This document shows positions 4,962-27,007 of a stretch of 31,274 bases of DNA, one piece after another. Within the stretch, counting starts at the first letter, position 1, and each line of letters starts with the position of its first letter. Source of the stretch: a virus; IMG/VR virus record IMGVR_UViG_3300017717_000037, positions 1 to 31,274 of that record, one strand, 5' to 3'. A program made the translations under genes and the position numbers. A model generated the notes under the pieces. That model was not told the DNA's origin. It did not search any database and saw only the letters and a program-made list of their open reading frames with translations.

Positions 4962-5333
4962 TTAGCCTAGATCTATGTTTACTTGTATAGCATTGCCAAG
5001 GTTAGTTCTGTTACCTTCGTCTGTCTTTATTCCAGCTCGATCAAGTATATCCTTACTTGCTTCCAATCTCACGTACTCCGAGTTAGCAGACGCAGATAAG
5101 TTAGACACAGTATCCAATGCTTGTATTGTTCTGTATCCTAATGTCTTGATTGCTTGTGCTTGTAACTGCTTCAACACCTTGTCATGCTTGAGTAAGCGAC
5201 TTGCTTCGACCTTGGCTGATTTGGGACTGTATCCAGCTTTAATAGCACATTGTGTTGCATTACCACCATTTGTTAATAGGTTATCAATAAATGCCTGTTG
5301 TCGTGTAGTCAGTTCTTTGGTTTTGCTGTCCAT
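4962..5333 (-). CDS. terS: Terminase small subunit
   Basis: This is the DNA-recognition subunit of the packaging terminase. It has 123 residues. The N-terminal part reads LTTRQQAFIDNLLTNGGNAT followed by QCAIKAGYSPKSAKVEASRL, the typical helix-turn-helix of the Terminase_2 family. The middle (KTLGYRTIQALDTVSNLS, YVRLEASKDILDRAG) is the usual oligomerisation region ending with the K-x-I-LDRAG motif. It is the first gene of the late minus-strand unit. No Shine-Dalgarno is visible before the ATG, and the only good promoter ends a few bases upstream, so the mRNA may start almost at the start codon. No alternative in-frame start exists upstream before a stop. Confidence 0.95.
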   Translation of the reverse strand: MDSKTKELTTRQQAFIDNLLTNGGNATQCAIKAGYSPKSAKVEASRLLKHDKVLKQLQAQAIKTLGYRTIQALDTVSNLSASANSEYVRLEASKDILDRAGIKTDEGNRTNLGNAIQVNIDLG

Positions 5334-5344
5334 GATCTTGTTCT

Positions 5345-5372
5345 ATAGTAAGGGGTCTAAAAAGCTTGTCAA
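5345..5372 (-). promoter_or_regulatory. Sigma70-like promoter of the late (terS) operon
   Basis: Reading the minus strand, TTGACA (5372-5367, perfect consensus) is followed after 16 bases by TACTAT (5350-5345, four of six bases). The predicted start, seven bases past the -10 box, is near 5338, only about five bases before the terS ATG. It is the only perfect -35 I found associated with the minus-strand genes, and it stands at the head of the whole late unit. No phage RNA polymerase is visible in the window, so use of host RNA polymerase is expected. Confidence 0.6.
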
Positions 5373-5387
5373 GTAAATAATTTGACA
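5367..5387. promoter_or_regulatory. Inverted repeat over the late -35 box, possible operator
   Basis: TGTCAA (5367-5372) and TTGACA (5382-5387) form a perfect 6-base inverted repeat separated by nine AT-rich bases. The left arm is the -35 box of the minus-strand promoter. A dimeric repressor or activator bound here would control late transcription. The right arm also looks like a plus-strand -35 box, but I see only a poor -10 (TACGAG) after it. Confidence 0.4.
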
Positions 5388-5428
5388 CCTATGTTTTGCT
5401 GGGTTACGAGGGGGCTTTCGTACAAGTA

Positions 5429-5445
5429 TCGAGACGTTGTCTCGA
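5429..5445. other. Perfect 7-bp stem-loop
   Basis: TCGAGAC (5429-5435) pairs with GTCTCGA (5439-5445) around a three-base loop. No U-tract follows on either strand, so it is not an intrinsic terminator. It is one of a series of hairpins in the divergent control region. Confidence 0.6.
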
Positions 5446-5514
5446 CCAAAAGGCTTCAATCCGTCCTCGTGCGTTCACATTTATTATACATAATTCTATC
5501 CTCATCTTATCGGA

Positions 5515-5534
5515 CAGGATCGAAGACGATCCTG
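5515..5534. other. Perfect 8-bp stem-loop
   Basis: CAGGATCG (5515-5522) pairs with CGATCCTG (5527-5534) around the loop AAGA. It is GC-rich for this genome, with no adjacent U-run. Together with the next nested hairpin it forms the most structured part of the control region. Confidence 0.65.
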
Positions 5535-5539
5535 ACTTC

Positions 5540-5573
5540 GCATAGCTCTATTCCGATTCAATCGGTGCTATGC
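5540..5573. other. Nested stem-loop
   Basis: The outer stem is GCATAGC (5540-5546) with GCTATGC (5567-5573). The inner stem is CCGAT (5553-5557) with ATCGG (5561-5565) around a TCA loop, with an asymmetric internal bulge (six bases on one side, one on the other). Two stacked stems of this length in an AT-rich genome suggest a selected RNA or DNA structure. Confidence 0.6.
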
Positions 5574-5684
5574 TCTCTCCTGTTCCCCCTCCTAATGGGC
5601 AGAAGAAAGTTTAAGGAATAGACATAGATGTAGTATATGACATAAACAAAGCATACAGACGTGGGGGAGGTACAACAACAAAAT

Positions 5685-5797
5685 TTTAATTCAAGAACAA
5701 TCCCCACCATCCCCATACGTGGCTCTACCCCCAATCGTGAACTGATAGACGTTCTCTCTTGGACTCGCCATCGTTGCCATATTCTTCTTGAATTAAA
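5685..5797. repeat. Long-range 13-bp inverted repeat
   Basis: TTTAATTCAAGAA (5685-5697) is the exact reverse complement of TTCTTGAATTAAA (5785-5797), with 87 bases between. The enclosed segment is C-rich at its left end (CCCCACCATCCCC) and contains no gene. The arms would close a ~113-base RNA or cruciform domain. It may also be a pair of binding sites. A second 13-bp inverted repeat of similar span lies at the other operon boundary near 13.7 kb. Confidence 0.6.
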
Positions 5798-5811
5798 CCT
5801 TCTATTTTAAT

Positions 5812-5825
5812 GGGCTTACCAGCCC
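5812..5825. other. Short GC stem-loop before the first early gene
   Basis: GGGCT (5812-5816) pairs with AGCCC (5821-5825) around TACC. On the minus strand the bases after the stem are ATTAAAATAG, too weak for a terminator. It could insulate the early promoter region from the structured segment to its left. Confidence 0.4.
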
Positions 5826-5927
5826 TGATTATACGGATTTATTTCTTATGTTGTACCTTTGTGTTGTTCTTCAGCCCATGCGGAGGGGGAACGAAATTTT
5901 ATAAACCATATCTTGAAAGGATATACA

Positions 5928-6467
5928 ATGACTAAAACAAATAACAACAATACACAAACAAGAAATAAAACTAATTCTGTATACATTCCAGATGCACTTA
6001 TCTCAAAGATGATTAGTTTAGATACTATGGCAGACCCACAGACAGCAGGAACTAAACTTGGATTTATAGGTGAATCAACAGCTAGAATATATATGTCTAT
6101 CACTAGAGCAATAGATAAAGCAGAAGAAAAAATAAGTGAAAGACAAAGACTAGTAAAGAAATTAAAAGATATGTTACTAGACCCAGACAAAGGACAAGAT
6201 GTTTCAAATAGTGATATCGCAAAAATAGAATATGCACCTGAGTATTATGCTAAGTATAATACAAAGATAGAAATATTCGAATGTATTTTAGATTTCATAG
6301 ATATTGAATTAGTACAACCATTAAGAGGATCTAACCTAACTGAAGATATGATCAAGAAAGATCAGGCAATACTTGATAGTTTAGGAGGAGGTGCTAACAC
6401 TTCAAGAGCAGATAAAATAGCTAAGATTCTAGGTAAGAAACCACTAGTTGAAGTTACAAATAAATAA
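5928..6467 (+). CDS. Early protein of unknown function, 179 residues
   Basis: I chose the ATG at 5928 because AAAGGA lies eight bases before it. An in-frame ATG 69 bases upstream has no ribosome binding site and adds an implausible Cys/Ser/His-rich leader. The protein starts MTKTNNNNTQTRNKTNSVYI. It looks soluble and helical, with a charged coiled-coil-like segment (IDKAEEKISERQRLVKKLKD) near residues 63-82 and a C-terminal half with IEIFECILDFIDIELVQPL. No catalytic motif is recognisable. It is the first early gene, stands alone between the control region and a strong terminator, and is therefore probably expressed as a monocistronic message soon after infection. A host-takeover role is possible but unproven. 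Confidence 0.85.
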   Translation: MTKTNNNNTQTRNKTNSVYIPDALISKMISLDTMADPQTAGTKLGFIGESTARIYMSITRAIDKAEEKISERQRLVKKLKDMLLDPDKGQDVSNSDIAKIEYAPEYYAKYNTKIEIFECILDFIDIELVQPLRGSNLTEDMIKKDQAILDSLGGGANTSRADKIAKILGKKPLVEVTNK

Positions 6468-6484
6468 ATAAAATATCTCCCAAT

Positions 6485-6517
6485 GGGCTATCATTAATTT
6501 GGTAGCCCTTTTTTTTT
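6485..6517 (+). terminator. Intrinsic terminator after the first early gene
   Basis: GGGCTATC (6485-6492) pairs with GGTAGCCC (6501-6508), allowing one mismatch or wobble near the loop, and a run of nine T follows immediately (6509-6517). It lies 18 bases after the stop codon, in the correct orientation for the plus-strand gene. Confidence 0.9.
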
Positions 6518-6763
6518 GTGCCGATTTAAAAAAAAATTTTTGCCTTCGGCACGAGTCTGTTTTCGAACAGACAATCGAGCAAAGGGCAAGCCCTTATGCA
6601 ATCCCAATTAGATTTATTCTAAATGATCTGTATAATCCTCAAGACTTTATGTCCCATTAGGATAGGGGTGGTTGTAATCGCAAGCACCAAGCCCCACCCT
6701 CTAGGTCTGCTCTCAAACTATAATAATCTAATGCTAGATTCGTGCAAATACTTTCATATAATA
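6518..6763. other. Structured non-coding stretch between terminator and second early promoter
   Basis: There is no gene between 6468 and 6810. After the terminator come, in order: GTGCCGA (6518-6524) complementary to TCGGCAC (6546-6552) around an A9/T5 tract; a 7-bp stem with a TTCG loop (listed separately); AAGGG (6582-6586) with CCCTT (6591-6595) around CAAG; and GGGTGG (6666-6671) with CCACCC (6694-6699), extended by TAG/CTA (6663-6665 with 6701-6703). The density of stems is well above what AT-rich sequence gives by chance. A small structured RNA transcribed from this stretch is possible, although I could not identify a promoter of its own. Replication or packaging signals are alternatives. 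Confidence 0.5.
6555..6572 (+). other. Stem-loop with UUCG tetraloop
   Basis: GTCTGTT (6555-6561) pairs perfectly with AACAGAC (6566-6572) and the loop is TTCG, one of the most stable RNA tetraloop sequences when read on the plus strand (the closing pair here is U-A rather than the optimal C-G). No T-run follows, so it is not a terminator. The tetraloop suggests selection at the RNA level. Confidence 0.6.
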
Positions 6764-9848: not shown

Positions 9849-10215
9849 GACAGGTAGATACGAAGCATATAATGGAGAGATGATTTACTTTCAATCCAAT
9901 GCTAAAGCAGATAGATACTTACAACTTGTAAAATTTTTAGAGAATAAATCTATTACTGATTTAGAAATCAAACCTACTTATGATGCAGTTGTACAGAATA
10001 AAAAGATGTGTACATTTACACCAGACTTTAGATACATGACACTTGAACCTAACGATCACCGAGGATATCAAGTTATTGAAGACGTGGTGGGTGTAACTAC
10101 AGATGTATACAAATTAAAAGTAAGTCTTATTGAAGCAACGAACTTCATTAAGGTACATAGTATACCAGCAAAGGAGATAGAAACATGGGCAGAGATTATA
10201 CCATTAAACCAATAG
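9811..10215 (+). CDS. DUF1064-type phage nuclease
   Basis: It has 134 residues, with GGGAG before the ATG. After a basic leader the protein reads GRYEAYNGEMIYFQSNAKAD, RYLQLVKFLENKSITDLEIK, PTYDAVV, FTPDFRYMTLEPN, YQVIEDVVGVTTDVYKLKVS. This is the DUF1064 layout: S-K-E-A-RY-L, then L-QP-Y, Y-x-ADF-Y, then VEDVKG-T-VYKLK. The family is a small PD-(D/E)XK-like nuclease, usually considered a Holliday-junction or replication-associated endonuclease. D and ED are present, but the usual Lys of the E-x-K motif appears as Val (EDVVG), so activity is uncertain. It overlaps both neighbours and sits among replication genes. Confidence 0.75.
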   Translation: MKNTTTKSVKKSRTGRYEAYNGEMIYFQSNAKADRYLQLVKFLENKSITDLEIKPTYDAVVQNKKMCTFTPDFRYMTLEPNDHRGYQVIEDVVGVTTDVYKLKVSLIEATNFIKVHSIPAKEIETWAEIIPLNQ

Positions 10216-10535
10216 ATGACGAGTGGATGCCAGATGATAAGTTGCAACTCTGGTTTTTCAATACATATCAACATGCAACAGACGGAGATTTAAATTATGA
10301 AACAGATCAATTTCGAGACTACTACCTTTCAAGAGGGGAAAGAAAGTACGACTGGTCAGCTTGCTTCAGGTTCTGGTGTCGTAAATCTTTCAGATTGGAT
10401 AAAGCTACATCAACGACCAAGGCCTATACTAAACAAGATAGAGTTAGTAACAACAACAATGACTCAATCAGATCTTATCTTGATAGATACAATAGCAACA
10501 GTAACGTACGACAAATTAGAACAGATAAAAAATAA
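10185..10535 (+). CDS. DnaT/replisome-organiser-like protein
   Basis: This is a 116-residue protein with AAGGAG before the ATG. Residues ~40-75 read QFRDYYLSRGERKYDWSACF followed by RFWCRKSFRL, matching the F-x-x-YW-x-x-G-x-K-DW-x-x-x-x-W-W domain at the end of many phage replication proteins (DnaT-like, DNA binding). The C-terminal third is Asn/Ser/Arg-rich and probably disordered. There is no initiator or helicase domain, so it likely works with the next protein and the host helicase. The gene is overlapped out of frame by the next gene by 77 to 239 bases, depending on the start used there. Confidence 0.6.
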   Translation: MGRDYTIKPIDDEWMPDDKLQLWFFNTYQHATDGDLNYETDQFRDYYLSRGERKYDWSACFRFWCRKSFRLDKATSTTKAYTKQDRVSNNNNDSIRSYLDRYNSNSNVRQIRTDKK

Positions 10536-12978: not shown

Positions 12979-13236
12979 ATGGGTACGTTTGATGATGCTT
13001 GGCGAAAAGCTACACTAAAAAAACAATGTAAGTATTGTGCAGATGAAGCTGTTAAGTGGAAAGGTGGTACGTATTATTGTAGAAAGTGTTACGAACAAGT
13101 GGTAATAAAAAGAATAGACAAGGAAATTTCTGCACCCCCTTATAGGAGAGGAGGGGGGTCGGAAATTTCCGAACACCAGGGAAAAAGAAAGAAGCCAAGA
13201 GAAATTAAAATATCAAAATATAAATTTATAAAATAG
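12979..13236 (+). CDS. Zinc-ribbon protein with basic tail and internal palindrome
   Basis: The 85-residue protein has a clear zinc ribbon: CKYC (C17, C20) and CRKC (C34, C37), separated by a Trp/Gly/Tyr-rich loop. The C-terminal half is very basic (GKRKKPREIKISKYKFIK). Between them lies an odd insert, KEISAPPYRRGGGSEISE, encoded by a large palindrome (listed separately). No strong Shine-Dalgarno precedes the ATG, which is two bases after the previous stop. Small zinc ribbons often contact nucleic acid or RNA polymerase; which applies here is unknown. Confidence 0.75.
   Translation: MGTFDDAWRKATLKKQCKYCADEAVKWKGGTYYCRKCYEQVVIKRIDKEISAPPYRRGGGSEISEHQGKRKKPREIKISKYKFIK
13122..13170 (+). repeat. 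Palindromic element inside the zinc-ribbon gene
   Basis: GGAAATTTC (13122-13130) pairs with GAAATTTCC (13162-13170), and CCCCCT (13135-13140) pairs with AGGGGG (13152-13157), separated by a small internal loop and an 11-base apex. The whole 49-base block is in frame and encodes the insert between the zinc ribbon and basic tail. It resembles an inserted palindromic element of the Rickettsia RPE kind, but I see no second copy in the window. Confidence 0.55.
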
Positions 13237-13714: not shown

Positions 13715-13807
13715 TTGTACTAGGGATTTTATTAATAAACACGATTGTTATAATTATTGTGGGATAAATTACTATATATTGTGATTTTTATTATATCCCT
13801 AGTACAA
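13715..13807. repeat. Long-range 13-bp inverted repeat at convergent boundary
   Basis: TTGTACTAGGGAT (13715-13727) and ATCCCTAGTACAA (13795-13807) are perfect inverted copies, 67 AT-rich bases apart. They lie between the ends of the converging early and late units. No gene is inside. They could form a large stem in transcripts of either strand, adding to termination, or be a pair of protein binding sites. A 13-bp pair of similar span sits in the divergent control region. Confidence 0.6.
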
Positions 13808-15034: not shown

Positions 15035-15424
15035 TTACATTGTTTGCCCATCAAACACTACCCATGTTTGAGTATCTTCTTTCCATATATAACCTTTTCC
15101 ATCATCTGGATATGCAACTGGTGCATCCCATTGACAAGTATCTTCATTCAATGTCCAACTATCCCAAGGCTTTAGAGGTATAAAAGCATCTTTACTAGCA
15201 TCATATGTAAAACCAATACCAGCATAGTTTTTTCTAAATGGTGTACCACCTAGTTTGTGTTCTCCAGCATAAGTATTATAAGATGTTTGTTTATACGTAC
15301 TAGTATTTTTATATAAGTTTTGTAAGAAAGCTTGTCCCTTTGCTTCAGTAGATGCATCACTATCTGCTACTACTATTACTTCTAAGACTAAATTGTTTTC
15401 ATCTAATTTTGCGAAATGTGCCAT
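15035..15424 (-). CDS. Tail-fibre-associated protein of marine phages
   Basis: The 129-residue protein starts MAHFAKLDENNLVLEVIVVA and includes KQTSYNTYAGEHKLGGTPFR, KNYAGIGFTYDASKDAFIPL and WDSWTLNEDTCQWDAPVAYP, ending KEDTQTWVVFDGQTM. I recognise this set (MAHFAKLDEN, then QTSYNT, RKNYAGIG, W-LNE-TC-W) from small proteins near the tail-fibre genes of many cyanophages and pelagiphages. They are thought to belong to tail or receptor-binding parts, but the exact function is not known to me. The start overlaps the stop of the adhesin gene (TAATG). Confidence 0.85.
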   Translation of the reverse strand: MAHFAKLDENNLVLEVIVVADSDASTEAKGQAFLQNLYKNTSTYKQTSYNTYAGEHKLGGTPFRKNYAGIGFTYDASKDAFIPLKPWDSWTLNEDTCQWDAPVAYPDDGKGYIWKEDTQTWVVFDGQTM

Positions 15425-16335
15425 TATGCTGTGTATGTCCCTGATGATGTGAATGTGTGATAAGTGTAACCTCCACTTGAAGTTACTGTTCCCCCTGATC
15501 CTACTTGCGTACCACTTTGATATCTAATTATAACTATACCAGATCCACCAGACCCACCATTTCCTGATGCACCTGGTGATGAACCACCACCTCCAGAGCC
15601 ACCTCCAGTATTTGCTGAACCATTAGCACCTGTATTACCTGAAGTGCCACTAGTACCAGCACCATTACCACCTCCACCATCAGAAGCAGTTGCTCCAGCT
15701 ACAGCATCTCCTCTACCTCCACCACCTCCAGAAGCATAAAATCCATTATCTCCTGTTGATGTTGCAGTCGCCCAAGCTGAATAAGCATTACTACCTGTAC
15801 CACCTTGACCTCCATCTTTAGCATCTTGACCAACACTTCCAGCACCACCACCACCAGAACCTCTGTCATTATCTTGATAAGAACTTCTTTGAGGAGAACC
15901 ACCATCATTTCCTTGTCCTGCAGTTCCAGAACCACCAGTGTGACTACTATTTCGGTTTCCTCCACCTCCTGAACCTCCGTCTTTACCAGACTGATGACCT
16001 GATTGTTTACCACCAGAACCACCACCACCTATTGCAGTTTGAGTTGCTACTGTACCACCTGAAAAAACTGAGTTAGATCCATTTACACTAGTTGTAGCAT
16101 TTGTTGCTCCAGCACCTACTGTAACTGTATATGCTGTAGTTGAAGAAACTTCTAAACCTGTTGCGTAAAGTAGACCACCAGCTCCTCCACCACCAGAACC
16201 CCAACCATTACCACCAGAAGAATTACTACCTCCACCTCCACCAGCAATAACTAATGTATCTATATTATATATTGCACCTAAAGCAGTACTTCCACCAGAG
16301 CCAAAACCTAATACATTATATCCAAAACCTGTCAT
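15424..16335 (-). CDS. Glycine-rich tail adhesin
   Basis: This 303-residue protein is about a third glycine. After a short N-terminus (LGAIYNIDTLVIAGGGGGS) come Gly/Ser/Asn-rich runs (SSGGNGWGSGGGGAGG and similar), and near the end GNGGSGGSGIVIIRYQSGTQ, then TYHTFTSSGTYTA, a familiar C-terminal signature of marine phage adhesins. Gly-rich strands can form polyglycine-II helix bundles, as in gp38-type tip proteins of T4-like phages that bind receptors. The gene sits between two other fibre genes. It is probably the outermost receptor-binding part. The Gly runs are encoded by repeated GGT/GGA-rich triplets that could vary by slippage. Confidence 0.85.
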   Translation of the reverse strand: MTGFGYNVLGFGSGGSTALGAIYNIDTLVIAGGGGGSNSSGGNGWGSGGGGAGGLLYATGLEVSSTTAYTVTVGAGATNATTSVNGSNSVFSGGTVATQTAIGGGGSGGKQSGHQSGKDGGSGGGGNRNSSHTGGSGTAGQGNDGGSPQRSSYQDNDRGSGGGGAGSVGQDAKDGGQGGTGSNAYSAWATATSTGDNGFYASGGGGGRGDAVAGATASDGGGGNGAGTSGTSGNTGANGSANTGGGSGGGGSSPGASGNGGSGGSGIVIIRYQSGTQVGSGGTVTSSGGYTYHTFTSSGTYTA

Positions 16336-21900: not shown

Positions 21901-23573
21901 GTTTTGTGTCTATCTGCATGATCTTTTTGTATTTTTTTTGATAATTGACCATAAAAAGCAGTTCTATCTCCACTTTTTTTTACCATATTTTCCATCATAG
22001 ATGAATAAGATGTTCTTGTTGATTCTTCTATTTCTATATCTTCTAACACTTCATCTAATTTATTATATAAAGACTTTTCTTTTCTTATTAAAGAGAAACT
22101 AAATCGTTCTAATATTTGCATATCATGTAAAGCATTTTCTAATGCTTCTTCTTCATTTCTAATATGCATATTAACTGTTTCTGGTCTTTTAGTTTTGGGT
22201 AATTGATTTTTAAAATCATTAATATTTCTTAATCTACTTCCAGCAAAATCTGCTAGCATATCCATTTTTTTATTTAAATTTGTTGCTGTATTTAACAAAC
22301 CAGCATCTTGACCTTCTTTTAGAGCTCGTTCATTTAATTTTCTAGTCACTCGAACACCTTCTAAAACATGAGGTGCTTCTTTAGCTATGACATTATCATT
22401 ACCAAAGTAACTAGCTTTAATATTTGCTTTAGTAACTTTTTGCATAAATTCATCAAATGATTCAGATTTGTTAAATTTTGTTTTAATATTTTCTATAGTA
22501 AAACTTACGTTTTGTGTTGCGACTTTTCTTGGTTCTATTACACCTTTTGTACCTAACCATAAATTACGCATATCTTCTATGTATCCATAACTAGCACCAT
22601 ACCAATTACCTCTTAATAAATTTACTGAACCTTTTTTAAATGCTACACCACCAGCTTTTACTTTTTTTGTATTTAATCCTCCATCACCTACTACTGATAA
22701 AAGCCAATCTTCCATTTTTTGACTGTTAGTTCTATGTAAAGCATTACCTAAAGTTGTACCCCTTGCAGTAAATTCATATCCTATACCAGTTTTTTGATAA
22801 CCAGTATCTAATTTTTTATTTAATCTTGGGTCTTCTTCAACTGGTACAACTCCTTCTTCTCTTAATACAGTATTAGCATCACCTTGCATAACTGGTTCTG
22901 TAGTTTCTTTTGCCATTGTATCATTAGGTGCTTTACCTTTTACTTTAGTTTTTTTTATTTTTGCTTCCATACCATCATCATAAGCAGTTGCATTAGCAAT
23001 ATTACTTCCAGCTCTTTTTGCAGTTGCCGCTCCAATTCCTCCACCTAAAAGACCTCCAAAAAAAGCAGATCCTCCTACTGCAAAAACTGTTTCCATTGGT
23101 TGATAAGTAGGATCATTAGGTGCTCTTACTAATTCAGTACCTACTGTTAATCCAGCAGATCCAGCACCTACTCTTAATGCTCCTTTAGCAAAACCCATTC
23201 CTATTGCTGTTGGTATAGGTATTAAATTTACAGGATCAAATATACCAGCAAATAACATAGAACCAAAACCAGAATTAATAGATAAACTATTTTTAATATT
23301 AGACATTCTTGCATATAAATTTTTATTATAATCAAACTCTTGTTGGCTTTTAGAATTAATTAAATCTTGTATTAATTCTTCAGGTTCATTTGCTAACATA
23401 TCATCTGTTACTGTAAATGATGGATCATCTTTACCTATAAATGCCTGTTTAGCGGCAGATATAGATGGAAGATATGAATATCTATATTGATTACCTACAT
23501 TTTCCCAAAATGATGGTGGTGTTTGTGGAGTAGCATTAAATAAATATTCACTTGGTTTAGCATTTAATTTCAT
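18930..23573 (-). CDS. Very large internal virion (ejection) protein, 1547 residues
   Basis: Such proteins sit in the inner core of T7-like capsids and are ejected with the DNA to form a trans-envelope channel. The protein starts MKLNAKPSEYLFNATPQTPP. Two Gly/Ala-rich hydrophobic segments (GSMLFAGIFDPVNLIPIPTA near 105-125; AVGGSAFFGGLLGGGIGAAT near 165-185) could insert in membrane. The central region is long and charged, with helical stretches, and the C-terminal third has amphipathic parts (KAIQQFAQITMMGTATIAGF). I see no lytic transglycosylase motif. It overlaps the next upstream gene by four bases (ATGA). It is the T7 gp16-position protein. Base composition is very AT-rich relative to the tail-tube genes. 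Confidence 0.85.
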   Translation of the reverse strand: MKLNAKPSEYLFNATPQTPPSFWENVGNQYRYSYLPSISAAKQAFIGKDDPSFTVTDDMLANEPEELIQDLINSKSQQEFDYNKNLYARMSNIKNSLSINSGFGSMLFAGIFDPVNLIPIPTAIGMGFAKGALRVGAGSAGLTVGTELVRAPNDPTYQPMETVFAVGGSAFFGGLLGGGIGAATAKRAGSNIANATAYDDGMEAKIKKTKVKGKAPNDTMAKETTEPVMQGDANTVLREEGVVPVEEDPRLNKKLDTGYQKTGIGYEFTARGTTLGNALHRTNSQKMEDWLLSVVGDGGLNTKKVKAGGVAFKKGSVNLLRGNWYGASYGYIEDMRNLWLGTKGVIEPRKVATQNVSFTIENIKTKFNKSESFDEFMQKVTKANIKASYFGNDNVIAKEAPHVLEGVRVTRKLNERALKEGQDAGLLNTATNLNKKMDMLADFAGSRLRNINDFKNQLPKTKRPETVNMHIRNEEEALENALHDMQILERFSFSLIRKEKSLYNKLDEVLEDIEIEESTRTSYSSMMENMVKKSGDRTAFYGQLSKKIQKDHADRHKTDLRLFAELRKMYENEGVSDKQLEYMGILEQRILNHKYTPKQQAIIDEYNRLKDDVENGFTTKQKNFYNKMKSELSEPREYDVEATLLSLKNSIKSINKDFTRPSGEDHYTMRKYLVDTIIDLREQFHNEVIVPYIMKNPSGRLATLLDAMKSKQPIIVPADDSLADVGLIVRKPMPKEYFNRVTDVNAQDRAEDIVKLNNKNIYILEDGRHYYYRDKDFGNFNRRFQFFGEDDSTAPLLLKSGFKKKRINNKMYDVFEYEKIDFSNNISKEQLNMLIRQIRFIENKYKGKVDDDTFEKMIAIPRNQTVRQKIKQDNASNKKKVGEDEALEENQIDLNSDLVPKANSFKNKFIGATEVLDIINFYSKKKFFNKDSVDVIPFKVQKEFKSGLSMADGELIKLEVNEQMIKLQADMQATKIINRIIGEGDAQDYDGIAGRGVQKFVMHRNFDIPNYLLTKESNGIADFIDTNGADLMRTYMNKFGPAVEMARMFDGDRFGKMKLYEAFNDVITRHSDDIELNPKDMTDKLFYQRDDIEEMTDAILNRAPRGMEIGSASNRLVKAIQQFAQITMMGTATIAGFADPGKVILSRGFKQAFGRYINSWIRDVNEIDLKDSANKHMLRFIGEGNETLSGAGASRMVEQGTGIGEVNNRVLGKVGDKFFEALDKIAGQFYNVNLLNQWTAINKRMVVPMSVDRIIRSGAMLSKKYTGDQSIKKYLKTDLEILRSHGLSEDDLKSIYALWKSAGGKRGKEIYYSNADLWMEKNPLIFRKFTSAVRADVLSTIITPTEADKPLLSYGLLKLSRFNKNMKDRQHNFFKLPIQFMSWAMAANSKIVLSTLQGRHQGVASGMTAMFALGMLSDYARNPEWWKYKSTTEKVIKAVEYSGLTAYLLDINSFAEIASNNFVGIRPLFGEKNPFTGNLPDQISEVGGPAGSIIADTYKLFADDSLEFKDQANMVKRMIPYNNLFYTKWLFNGLKDSIVNDNNTVKY

Positions 23574-26500
23574 TGTATTAACTTTTTATCTTGATTATAT
23601 ATAATTTCTAATTTATCTATTGCTTGTTCTGCTTCTACTTTAGTATCATATTCAGATATAAAACCTGTATTTACAAAATATTCAAATTTACTTTTTCCAT
23701 CTACCATTACTGATTTAAAAATATTATTTGGTAATTCTTGTATTTGTCTACTAGGTACTACATAAAATTTATTATTATTTTCTATTATAGTATCAGTAAA
23801 ATCTGTATTAATATTAGTGTCTGCATTATTTATATTTAATGTATAAAATGATCTATTATAATTTAACAATCTTTTTTCTGATTCGTTTAAATTAGTAAAC
23901 GTATCTATTTTCTTTAAATTTTTAACTGCATTAGGTAAAGGTTGTATTTTTTGTGCAATAGGAGAAGCTAATTCTGAACTAGGACTTACTGTATCATATC
24001 TTTTTTTAAGAGCATATCCATATTTATTATTTAAATTAGTTAATTTATCAGTATGATTTTCTGGTATTGTAATAGTTATTAATTCATTATTGTCATCTGT
24101 AATTAATTGTTTATTATCTATTCCGTCTATTCTAGTTGTATATTGTACATATCTTTCATTTTCTGATAGAGATTCACTTGCAATAAATTTGACTCTATCA
24201 GGTGTAAAAGGCATACCATCTACAGTTAAAGCATCTATTAAATTATTATCATTAAATTGATTTCCTATAATATCTCCAGGTATACCTTGAAAAGATAAAC
24301 TTTGTTTTGCTTTATTTAACTCTGTTGCTGTTATAGTTTTTTTAACTTCTGTTGAACTAAATAATAAACTATCTCCTTTAAAAGAAGGTGCGTTACTATT
24401 TTTAATTTTTTGTTCCCAACTATTTTTGTTTTTTTCTGCATTTAATTCAAAGTTTAATGTGCCATTTTTTTTCTTTATTTGATCTGTTACATTTAAAAAT
24501 GTAAGTATTGATTGTGAATGAAAGTTATCGCTAGGAAAATATTCAGCAAATAATTCTGATTTTTTTTGTAGTTCTTGATACGGATTTCCTATTGCTAAAT
24601 CTATAAATTTACCTTCTTTATTTTGAAATGAATTATTTCTATAAGTAAAATCATTTTGTAAATTAGTTACTCCACTATCATTTAACTTTTTATAAGATAC
24701 ATCACCAATAGTAATTTGATCAAGTATTCTATTTACTTCTTTTTTAATATCTCCTCTATCTAAATCATCTGTAAATCCTGTATTTAATAATTCTTTATAT
24801 GTTTGAAAATGTATAAATTTTGATACTGCTTCTGCTAGTTTAGGTTTTTTAATGTCATCTGTTCCATCTAACATAGTATTAAAAATTATTTGTTTTACAT
24901 CATCAAAAACTTGCGAGTTGCTTTTATTAACAAATCCTTCAACAGTAGCTTTTTTTGTAAATTTTTGATATATGTTTCCATAATTATTTTTTATAGTTGT
25001 GTCTTCAATATCATTACTTGTGTTTTTAAACCTTTGAATAATTTCTGTTCTATCATTTGGGTTAATGTCTGCAAATGATTTAAGTAATCCATAAGTTTCA
25101 TTTGATATATTTAAATTAGATATATTTATATTTTCATCTTTTATTAATTTTAATAATGGAAGTGTAAATGAATTTAATAAATTTTCATCTCCTTCTCTTA
25201 AAGATACTTTAAATATATTTCCTATATTTTTAGATTTAAAACCACGTTCTATAAATTTTTTTATAATAGGTATATCATCTGGCTGAACTCCATTTGATAT
25301 AATTTGTTCTATATATTTATCGCCTTCACTTGAAGTAGTTGTAGCACTTACTACATTATTTGGTTTATCACTTAATAAACTACTATGTATTTTTGCTATA
25401 CTTATAGATTCTTTTGTTGCTGTTCCTGATGTTGATATAGCAGAGTTTATTTCTTCAATAGCAAATAAAGATACTGGTTTAAACAAATCAAATATTTCTA
25501 CTCTAGTTAAACCAAATATTTTGCCTTTTGTACTTAGTTGATTACCTCCTAATATTTCTTTAAATACTTCTAATGAACTTTTATCTGATTCTAAAACATT
25601 ACCTAATATGTTTTGTATTTCATTAAATTTATCTTCTGTAATATTTTTAACAGCATTTAATGCTTCATTATCTGGAATAAGATCTATAGATTCATTAAAA
25701 TTTTTTTGAAATGATTCATAAGTTCCTAGTGTTAAAGTATTGCCTAAATTTTTTAAAGTTTGTTTTTGATTATATTCTAAATTATTATCATTTATTTTTT
25801 GTTTAAATCTACCAACACTAGCTTTTATATTATTTAATGCTTTTGCTTTATTTAAAGCTACAACTTTAGTAGATTTAGAAGAACCAGTAATAGAAATATT
25901 ATCTAGTCCTGATCCCATATCATCAATTATAGATTCTAAATTAGATAAAGATAATGGCTTATTACTATTTAATTGGTCTAAAGCTATTCCTTGTAATTTT
26001 TCTATTTGTATATTAGCTTCTACTATTGCTGTATCATCTGTGCTTCTTCTGTTTCTAAAAGTATTTATTTCTTGATTAATGTGTTGTTTATTAGCATTTG
26101 TAAAAAATAATTTTTTTGCTTCTTCATTATTAAAAATACTACCATTTGGTAATTTTACTTGTAAATCTTCATTACCATTAAATATATTTTGTATTTTTCT
26201 TAATTGTTCTTGTGTTATTTTAAAGTCACCATTTTCATTTGTTTCAAACAAAACTGATCTAAATTTATTATATTCTTTATAACCAGCTAATTCTTTCCAT
26301 ATATCTTCAATTTCACTTTTTGATATTAAATCAGGATCAATTTTGTTTTGAGATAATATTACATCAGCTAACTCTTTTGTAAGTGCTTCATTCTCTGGTC
26401 CATCTTTTAATGTTTTTATCCTATCTATTATTTTATTTTGTCTTTGCCCTAAACCATTTAATAATTTTGTTCTTGCTCTATTTGCATTTTCTTTTGCTTC

Positions 26501-27007
26501 TGATTTTAATAAAGGATTAACTTTATTTCCAACAATAATATCAAAAGTGCTTTGAAACTCTTTTGGTATATTTTCTCTCATTGGTTCTAATACTGAATTT
26601 AAATTTCCTGCTAACAATTCTGTATTACTTCTATTTGATGGATTACTGTAAAAATCAGTAGTAATATCTGTTATCTTTTTTTCTACAGAATTTTCTAAAG
26701 TATTTAAATAAGTTACTTTTGCAGCTTTATTGTAAGCATCATTATATATTGATCCACCAGCTTCCATTTTATTTATATATGGAACACCATCTTTAATAGG
26801 TATTTCTGCAACACTTGCATCTTGTTCAGCTTGTCTTACAGCATTATCTTGAGCTTGTCTAAAAAATACATTACTTACAGTTTGACTAGCTTGTATTAAA
26901 GATTTAGCTATAGATTCTTGACCAGTAGTATCTATAGATATATTATAGTTTACCTTTGGTTTATCTGCTGTTCTTATTCTTCTTGTATCTTTATATCTTG
27001 TTACCAT
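23570..27007 (-). CDS. Large internal virion protein, 1145 residues
   Basis: The protein starts MVTRYKDTRRIRTADKPKVN, then YNISIDTTGQESIAKSLIQA and SQTVSNVFFRQAQDNAVRQA, and is helical, charged and Asn/Lys/Ile-rich throughout with long coiled-coil-like parts (KNLGNTLTLGTYESFQKNFN and similar). It has no catalytic motif and no membrane segment. Position and size correspond to T7 gp15-like core proteins. The N-terminal segment resembles other podoviral internal virion proteins. It starts two bases before the end of the gp14-like gene and ends overlapping the 1547-residue gene. Together the two take up about 8 kb, a quarter of the window. Confidence 0.85.
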   Translation of the reverse strand: MVTRYKDTRRIRTADKPKVNYNISIDTTGQESIAKSLIQASQTVSNVFFRQAQDNAVRQAEQDASVAEIPIKDGVPYINKMEAGGSIYNDAYNKAAKVTYLNTLENSVEKKITDITTDFYSNPSNRSNTELLAGNLNSVLEPMRENIPKEFQSTFDIIVGNKVNPLLKSEAKENANRARTKLLNGLGQRQNKIIDRIKTLKDGPENEALTKELADVILSQNKIDPDLISKSEIEDIWKELAGYKEYNKFRSVLFETNENGDFKITQEQLRKIQNIFNGNEDLQVKLPNGSIFNNEEAKKLFFTNANKQHINQEINTFRNRRSTDDTAIVEANIQIEKLQGIALDQLNSNKPLSLSNLESIIDDMGSGLDNISITGSSKSTKVVALNKAKALNNIKASVGRFKQKINDNNLEYNQKQTLKNLGNTLTLGTYESFQKNFNESIDLIPDNEALNAVKNITEDKFNEIQNILGNVLESDKSSLEVFKEILGGNQLSTKGKIFGLTRVEIFDLFKPVSLFAIEEINSAISTSGTATKESISIAKIHSSLLSDKPNNVVSATTTSSEGDKYIEQIISNGVQPDDIPIIKKFIERGFKSKNIGNIFKVSLREGDENLLNSFTLPLLKLIKDENINISNLNISNETYGLLKSFADINPNDRTEIIQRFKNTSNDIEDTTIKNNYGNIYQKFTKKATVEGFVNKSNSQVFDDVKQIIFNTMLDGTDDIKKPKLAEAVSKFIHFQTYKELLNTGFTDDLDRGDIKKEVNRILDQITIGDVSYKKLNDSGVTNLQNDFTYRNNSFQNKEGKFIDLAIGNPYQELQKKSELFAEYFPSDNFHSQSILTFLNVTDQIKKKNGTLNFELNAEKNKNSWEQKIKNSNAPSFKGDSLLFSSTEVKKTITATELNKAKQSLSFQGIPGDIIGNQFNDNNLIDALTVDGMPFTPDRVKFIASESLSENERYVQYTTRIDGIDNKQLITDDNNELITITIPENHTDKLTNLNNKYGYALKKRYDTVSPSSELASPIAQKIQPLPNAVKNLKKIDTFTNLNESEKRLLNYNRSFYTLNINNADTNINTDFTDTIIENNNKFYVVPSRQIQELPNNIFKSVMVDGKSKFEYFVNTGFISEYDTKVEAEQAIDKLEIIYNQDKKLIQ

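Follow-up and report, generated by a model that had tools for sequence, protein, structure and literature searches.

The DNA analyzed here (the window) is a 31-kb virus record (31,274 nt) from an uncultivated marine phage, a tailed one to judge by the terminase, head, and tail genes present; among isolates, Pelagibacter phage EXVC031P Hodr is closest by TerL (65%). Positions 5334-5927 are bounded exactly by terS, on the minus strand, and by a divergent plus-strand gene, and these roughly 600 bases contain no credible gene, in agreement with the original prediction. Genes to the left run leftward from terS; those to the right, including genes for a RecE-like exonuclease, an Erf annealing protein, and an anti-restriction protein, run rightward, so that the gap has the position of a divergent control region between late and early genes. 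Its features and bordering genes are as follows (L numbers, here and below, are our labels for collected loci):

4962-5333, minus strand: terS, encoding the small terminase subunit; opens the leftward (late) operon (PHROG 51, E 1.7e-16)
5345-5372, minus strand: sigma70-like promoter toward terS, TTGACA-N16-TACTAT, with a similar promoter at the equivalent place in most relatives
5367-5387, no strand assigned: operator-like dyad TGTCAAGTAAATAATTTGACA that overlaps the terS promoter at its -35 and is conserved in L009-L015, where the flanks have diverged
5402-5473, minus strand: branched motif, 72 nt, identified by covariation and covariance-model scores (below)
5515-5573, no strand assigned: pair of accessory hairpins (8 bp; 7+5 bp) separating rod from motif, z -3.6 and -3.1
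5582-5892, minus strand: rod, a long imperfect bulged hairpin with apical arms, recognized from its stems, fold statistics, and counterparts in relatives
5908-5924, plus strand: ribosome-binding site (RBS) region of the early gene, partly inside a 5-bp hairpin (5908-5912/5920-5924)
5928-6467, plus strand: first rightward (early) gene, 179 aa, with its own RBS and no family match

Read along the minus strand from the early gene, the order is RBS, 311-nt bulged rod (5892-5582), two hairpins, motif (5473-5402), and terS promoter/operator.

Several other parts of the window stand out. A second gene-free stretch (6468-6741) lies 3′ of the first early gene; after a terminator (6485-6517) it has hairpins GTGCCGA...TTCGGCAC, GTCTGTTTTCGAACAGAC, and GGGCAAGCCC, with a possible GGGGTGG/CCACCCC pairing, and is perhaps another structured element. 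A hairpin ahead of a strand switch (13122-13170; GGAAATTTCTGCACCCCCT/AGGGGGGTCGGAAATTTCC) and a 21-nt inverted repeat between converging operons (13715-13807) are perhaps terminators. A GC-rich island inside a phrog_2295-like gene (15424-16335) reaches 47% GC with strong skew, vs. about 33% GC for the contig. The 1145-aa product of 23570-27007, encoded in very AT-rich DNA (22-25% GC) adjoining an internal virion protein, has no sequence match in PHROG, Pfam, or PDB; promoters for an N4-type virion RNA polymerase were considered and set aside, this orphan protein having no RNA-polymerase match. No DNA polymerase was found among the window genes tested.

The stems originally predicted in the gap are all present: a 7-bp stem at 5429-5435/5439-5445, an 8-bp stem at 5515-5522/5527-5534, a 7+5-bp stem at 5540-5546/5567-5573 and 5553-5557/5561-5565, and a 13-bp inverted repeat at 5685-5697/5785-5797 with a C-rich stretch between its arms. 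The largest had been overlooked: 26 nt, 88% complementary, at 5582-5607/5867-5892, nested with 10 bp at 5668-5677/5849-5858 and with the 13-bp repeat to form the 311-nt rod. Folded as DNA, the minus strand of 5474-5927 has a z-score of -5.4, equaled by none of 100 shuffles; in the terms used for Frpo/ssi sites, this is a very stable ssDNA stem-loop in a non-coding stretch. As RNA, 5570-5905 gives z about -4 on either strand. Nested self-complementarity is 6.8 standard deviations above dinucleotide shuffles and the highest on the contig, by a narrow lead over AT-rich stretches (75.2 vs. 74.1). The region contains no tRNA, and a BLASTN search of it against phages returned 37-bp chance matches only. 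A search of the gap, motif included, against Rfam 15 gave no match at the gathering score and nothing convincing at a relaxed threshold.

Relatives were collected via TerS. Most have the same arrangement, with terS followed by about 280-800 gene-free nt (a few have more) and then a divergent gene for a helical protein, and a rod or quasi-palindrome occupies the equivalent place despite near-total sequence turnover. Averaged over 34 diverse loci, folding of the gap is better than that of dinucleotide shuffles by 27 (plus strand) or 29 (minus strand) kcal/mol, single values being rough at eight shuffles per locus. The Hodr gap forms a quasi-palindrome of 468 nt, which far outscores every other inverted repeat in that genome (208, vs. 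at most 41 away from it); its arm extends over the RBS and start codon and covers about 147 nt of the early gene, and short bulges account for most of the difference between the arms. Eleven Hodr-type sequences have 165 consensus pairs, 22 of them with compensated changes, while the near-identical IMG/VR contigs L004-L008 differ too little for covariation. Codons within the Hodr palindrome have few synonymous differences from those of L083, on small counts. Stem conservation in relatives, the check proposed with the original prediction, thus finds structure kept by compensatory change, and the selected structured element that it envisaged is borne out by this together with folding beyond chance. 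(The GenBank records of L089 and L102, OQ414635 and OQ414636, apparently have swapped locus tags: the Hodr record has EXVC032PBaldr tags and the Baldr record EXVC031PHodr tags.)

By its position, the first early gene of the window belongs with the fast-evolving helical-protein family found beside these gaps. The family (e.g., L089:12374-12814, L074, L062, and window 5928-6467) is seemingly large and very divergent, with a C-terminal F/Y...G..Y/W.P motif, and has no PHROG or Pfam entry. Two structure models of early proteins from relatives (mean pLDDT 83) predict a long helical hairpin; a search of a viral fold library with one of them found no named relative.

The palindromes might conceivably have no selected function, having arisen from repeated inverted duplication of the early gene start and been kept near-perfect by template switching. 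Arms that copy this start, RBS and codons included, occur in Hodr, L013-L015, L036, L083, and others, as such an origin would predict. Against it, excess folding is found at the equivalent place in every relative tested, and the motif described below covaries and keeps invariant unpaired bases across phages and plasmids; we regard the explanation as extremely improbable. A hairpin-ended (telomeric) genome, an idea prompted by the bulged palindrome, has no support.

Mismatches between palindrome arms in relatives bear on which strand folds. On the plus strand A.C mismatches outnumber G.T by 117 to 60, where composition predicts 94:83 (p 7e-4). Wobble pairs are therefore tolerated more on the minus strand, making it the better candidate for the folded strand; a subgroup (L020-L022 and L037) lacks the bias. 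Between terS and the divergent gene, loci L017-L022 have a row of several separate long palindromes with very small ORFs among them, and their mismatch bias is unlike that of other loci. The RBS in the outer stem of Hodr-type palindromes suggested an RNA thermometer or RBS-sequestering leader, an idea set aside because the wobble counts favor the opposite strand and the pairing is DNA-like.

In the branched motif at 5402-5473, the window has invariant blocks in common with L009, L010, and L012. The paired parts of the motif are P1 (5406-5411/5465-5470), the P2 hairpin (the 7-bp stem above), and P3 (CC-N4-GG). A pattern search of IMG/VR with two of the blocks found 52 stretches, most of them with a single architecture comprising P1 (about 5 pairs), P3, the P2 hairpin, and invariant GGATTGAAGCC and ACGAAAGCC. 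In 30 aligned sequences, 97.2% of cells are paired (about 40% in slid controls), and 51 cells are changed on both sides, vs. 11.6 in shuffles. G.U pairs are almost absent: 2 of about 343 in this set and 4 of about 749 in a larger, model-fitted one. In our judgment, made without an RNA control, this scarcity is unusual for an RNA with such covariation, and it fits DNA. Two covariance models were built, R1 from phage copies alone and R2 from phage copies without any sequence of the window clade; loci from the pattern search match by construction. In the window R1 scores 48.3 bits, and the leave-clade-out R2 has its sole match at the motif (32.6 bits; E 7.8e-6, E-values of such home-made models being rough).

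These pairing statistics also bear on a structured RNA, one of the forms originally proposed for the element. Such an RNA, or a long mRNA leader, would be transcribed from the minus strand as part of the late transcript, and would regulate terS or pair with early mRNA. The minus-strand wobble preference, the RNA fold score, and the 22 compensated pairs in the Hodr family would all suit it, but the near-absence of G.U from the conserved motif and the lack of an Rfam family would not. Nor would the strands on which the motif is found elsewhere (below), namely the virion-sense strand in microviruses and the conjugative transfer strand in the plasmids checked. In addition, the recognizable terS promoter is downstream of the structure, so that a terS transcript would exclude it. 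We think an RNA role quite unlikely.

The motif recurs in dsDNA phages, in microviruses, and in many, mostly conjugative, plasmids. R1 places it immediately upstream of terS, on the terS-sense strand, in the window and in L065 and L085, the latter two from outside the model; weaker matches are found in L048, L055, L046, L062, and others. The motif is undetectable in Hodr, where R2 has no match, and in several other relatives, though palindromes are strongest there, and rod and motif are therefore separable. In the microviruses L117, L140, and L137, which encode replication-initiation and pilot proteins, it is on the gene-sense strand, and in L117 and L137 on the virion-sense strand. Paired copies occur at ten dsDNA phage loci, where the two are oppositely oriented, are separated by 126-529 nt, and in every case point outward, an arrangement that resembles a bidirectional origin and is consistent with origin use.

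In bacterial genomes, a pattern scan found at least 117 stretches, plasmids included; almost all filtered loci searched have model-confirmed copies. A BLAST search with 251 nt of a Pseudomonas plasmid around one copy matched 615 plasmid records, 526 of them conjugative (BLAST matches, distinct from covariance-model matches), mostly over the motif and outside annotated genes. The motif is on the transfer strand in F and R46 and, by gene orientation, in other plasmids. A packaging start (pac) site read by the neighboring small terminase, again among the original suggestions, would explain why the element adjoins terS in the window and in many relatives, but the motif also occurs in plasmids and microviruses, where no terminase is close by, and this reading seems very unlikely.

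The flanks of the motif were compared at 79 loci from phages, plasmids, and chromosomes. With DNA parameters and few shuffles per locus, the folding gain over shuffles is 17.9 kcal/mol for the 450 nt facing the early gene, vs. 3.4 for the opposite flank, and the early-gene side is the more structured at 68 of the 79. The corresponding window values are 24.1 and 0.0.

In 25 kb of the F plasmid, R1 has two matches only, both on the minus strand: 58091-58176 (E 1.5e-13) and 63479-63564 (E 7.6e-12), these E-values again being rough; R2 scores them at 67.9 and 60.0 bits. The first is 466 nt upstream of ssb (58643) and the second 467 nt upstream of a gene at 64032, which from its position we take to be ygeA; the corresponding spacing in the window is 454 nt. 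In F, oriT is on the right-hand side, close to traM, with the leading region on the left, which makes the minus strand the transferred one. The published single-strand promoters of F are Frpo2, upstream of ssb, and Frpo1, upstream of ygeA/ygeB (PMC9849209), and the two matches are at these loci. Homology with Frpo is thus found at the level of the locus, through the covariance-model motif. Frpo transcripts are described both as primers for second-strand synthesis and as mRNAs of establishment genes (PMC7736820). Frpo1 and Frpo2 (ssiD) of F, and ssi2 and ssi3 of ColIb-P9, are attributed to Masai and Arai (1997), as cited in PMC9849209, PMC7736820, and PMC11541004. No report of Frpo in phages was found in the open-access papers searched, where mentions of it concern plasmids.

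The gap may thus, we are just inclined to believe, be a phage-borne single-strand initiation element of the Frpo/ssi kind, acting in minus-strand ssDNA to prime replication, early transcription, or both. The computations show that it is structured, that its pairing is under selection, that one strand is preferred, that order and spacing are conserved, and that its motif is also present at the F Frpo loci. The original suggestion of a replication origin came close to this, without foreseeing the link to F. Action in ssDNA and RNA polymerase as the partner are what we infer, as is which of the two uses matters in the phage. The minus strand would become single-stranded in the course of replication, strand displacement, or recombination, with displacement and RecE/Erf recombination as possible sources of the ssDNA. 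This strand would then fold into rod, hairpins, and conserved motif, and the folded DNA would recruit host machinery, with RNA polymerase the likeliest candidate, as at Frpo of F. RNA would start on the folded minus-strand template and run rightward into the early gene, and could prime the complementary strand, serve as early mRNA, or do both. No clear -35/-10 pair was found in the window rod, by a scan that also misses the authentic F Frpo promoters.

Microvirus and plasmid copies of the motif enter cells as ssDNA. Tailed phages are expected to inject dsDNA, so that a single-stranded stage is not obvious for the window phage, which counts against the Frpo-like reading.

A rival reading is a primosome-loading origin site of the PAS/ssi type, at which PriA or primase would bind the ssDNA motif and load helicase, with no promoter activity and with the rod as origin architecture. 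The outward-facing pairs in ten phage loci and the virion-sense copies in microviruses would suit such a site, as would the early gene at 10185-10532, whose product weakly resembles phage replication initiation proteins and the DNA-binding domain of DnaT. The classical PAS/ssi sites are carried by phiX174 and ColE1, and neither is matched by the covariance models; the matches are instead at F sites published as RNA-polymerase-dependent. We consider a primosome site unlikely, while giving it real weight.

More broadly, and as a tentative suggestion that we hold somewhat less readily than the Frpo-like reading of the gap itself, the motif of 70-90 nt could be a general ssDNA recognition element of conjugative plasmids, ssDNA phages, and dsDNA tailed phages, recruiting one host factor for an RNA start; tailed phages would then have a programmed single-stranded step that fires the first early gene, an origin, or both. 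A few plasmid families are known to have single-strand promoters, which turn on genes for establishment and anti-defense as soon as the DNA has entered. With a covarying motif as their mark in phages and plasmids alike, more of them can be searched for, and the motif shows which bases are important. That dsDNA phages also carry it implies that many phages may likewise use a device known from mating bacteria to start genes or DNA copying, and makes two questions testable: which host factor reads the ssDNA structure, and whether tailed phages have a single-stranded stage for early expression or replication.

Among known systems, large ncRNAs such as GOLLD, ROOL, and OLE are likewise large folded elements in non-coding DNA, but the window element differs from them in its DNA-like pairing and its context, as well as in having no Rfam match. 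The primosome assembly sites of phiX174 and ColE1 share with it structured ssDNA on the strand that needs priming. Leading-region (CUP) elements of IncN plasmids are similar by location: in R46 and IncN plasmids the motif lies within or close to the leading region, and the R46 copy is on what is inferred to be the transferred strand. The closest parallel is with Frpo1 and Frpo2 of F. The window differs from these in its carrier, a dsDNA tailed phage, and in lying between terS and an early operon; its rod is richer in A+T and of unrelated sequence, not alignable with that of F, and the two rods resemble each other in form only. In both, the same conserved motif (about 86 nt in F) is separated from the gene by a long imperfect hairpin; the structure is on the template strand of the first early or leading gene, at similar spacing; and the order along the functional strand is the same: complement of the early gene start, long imperfect hairpin, motif.
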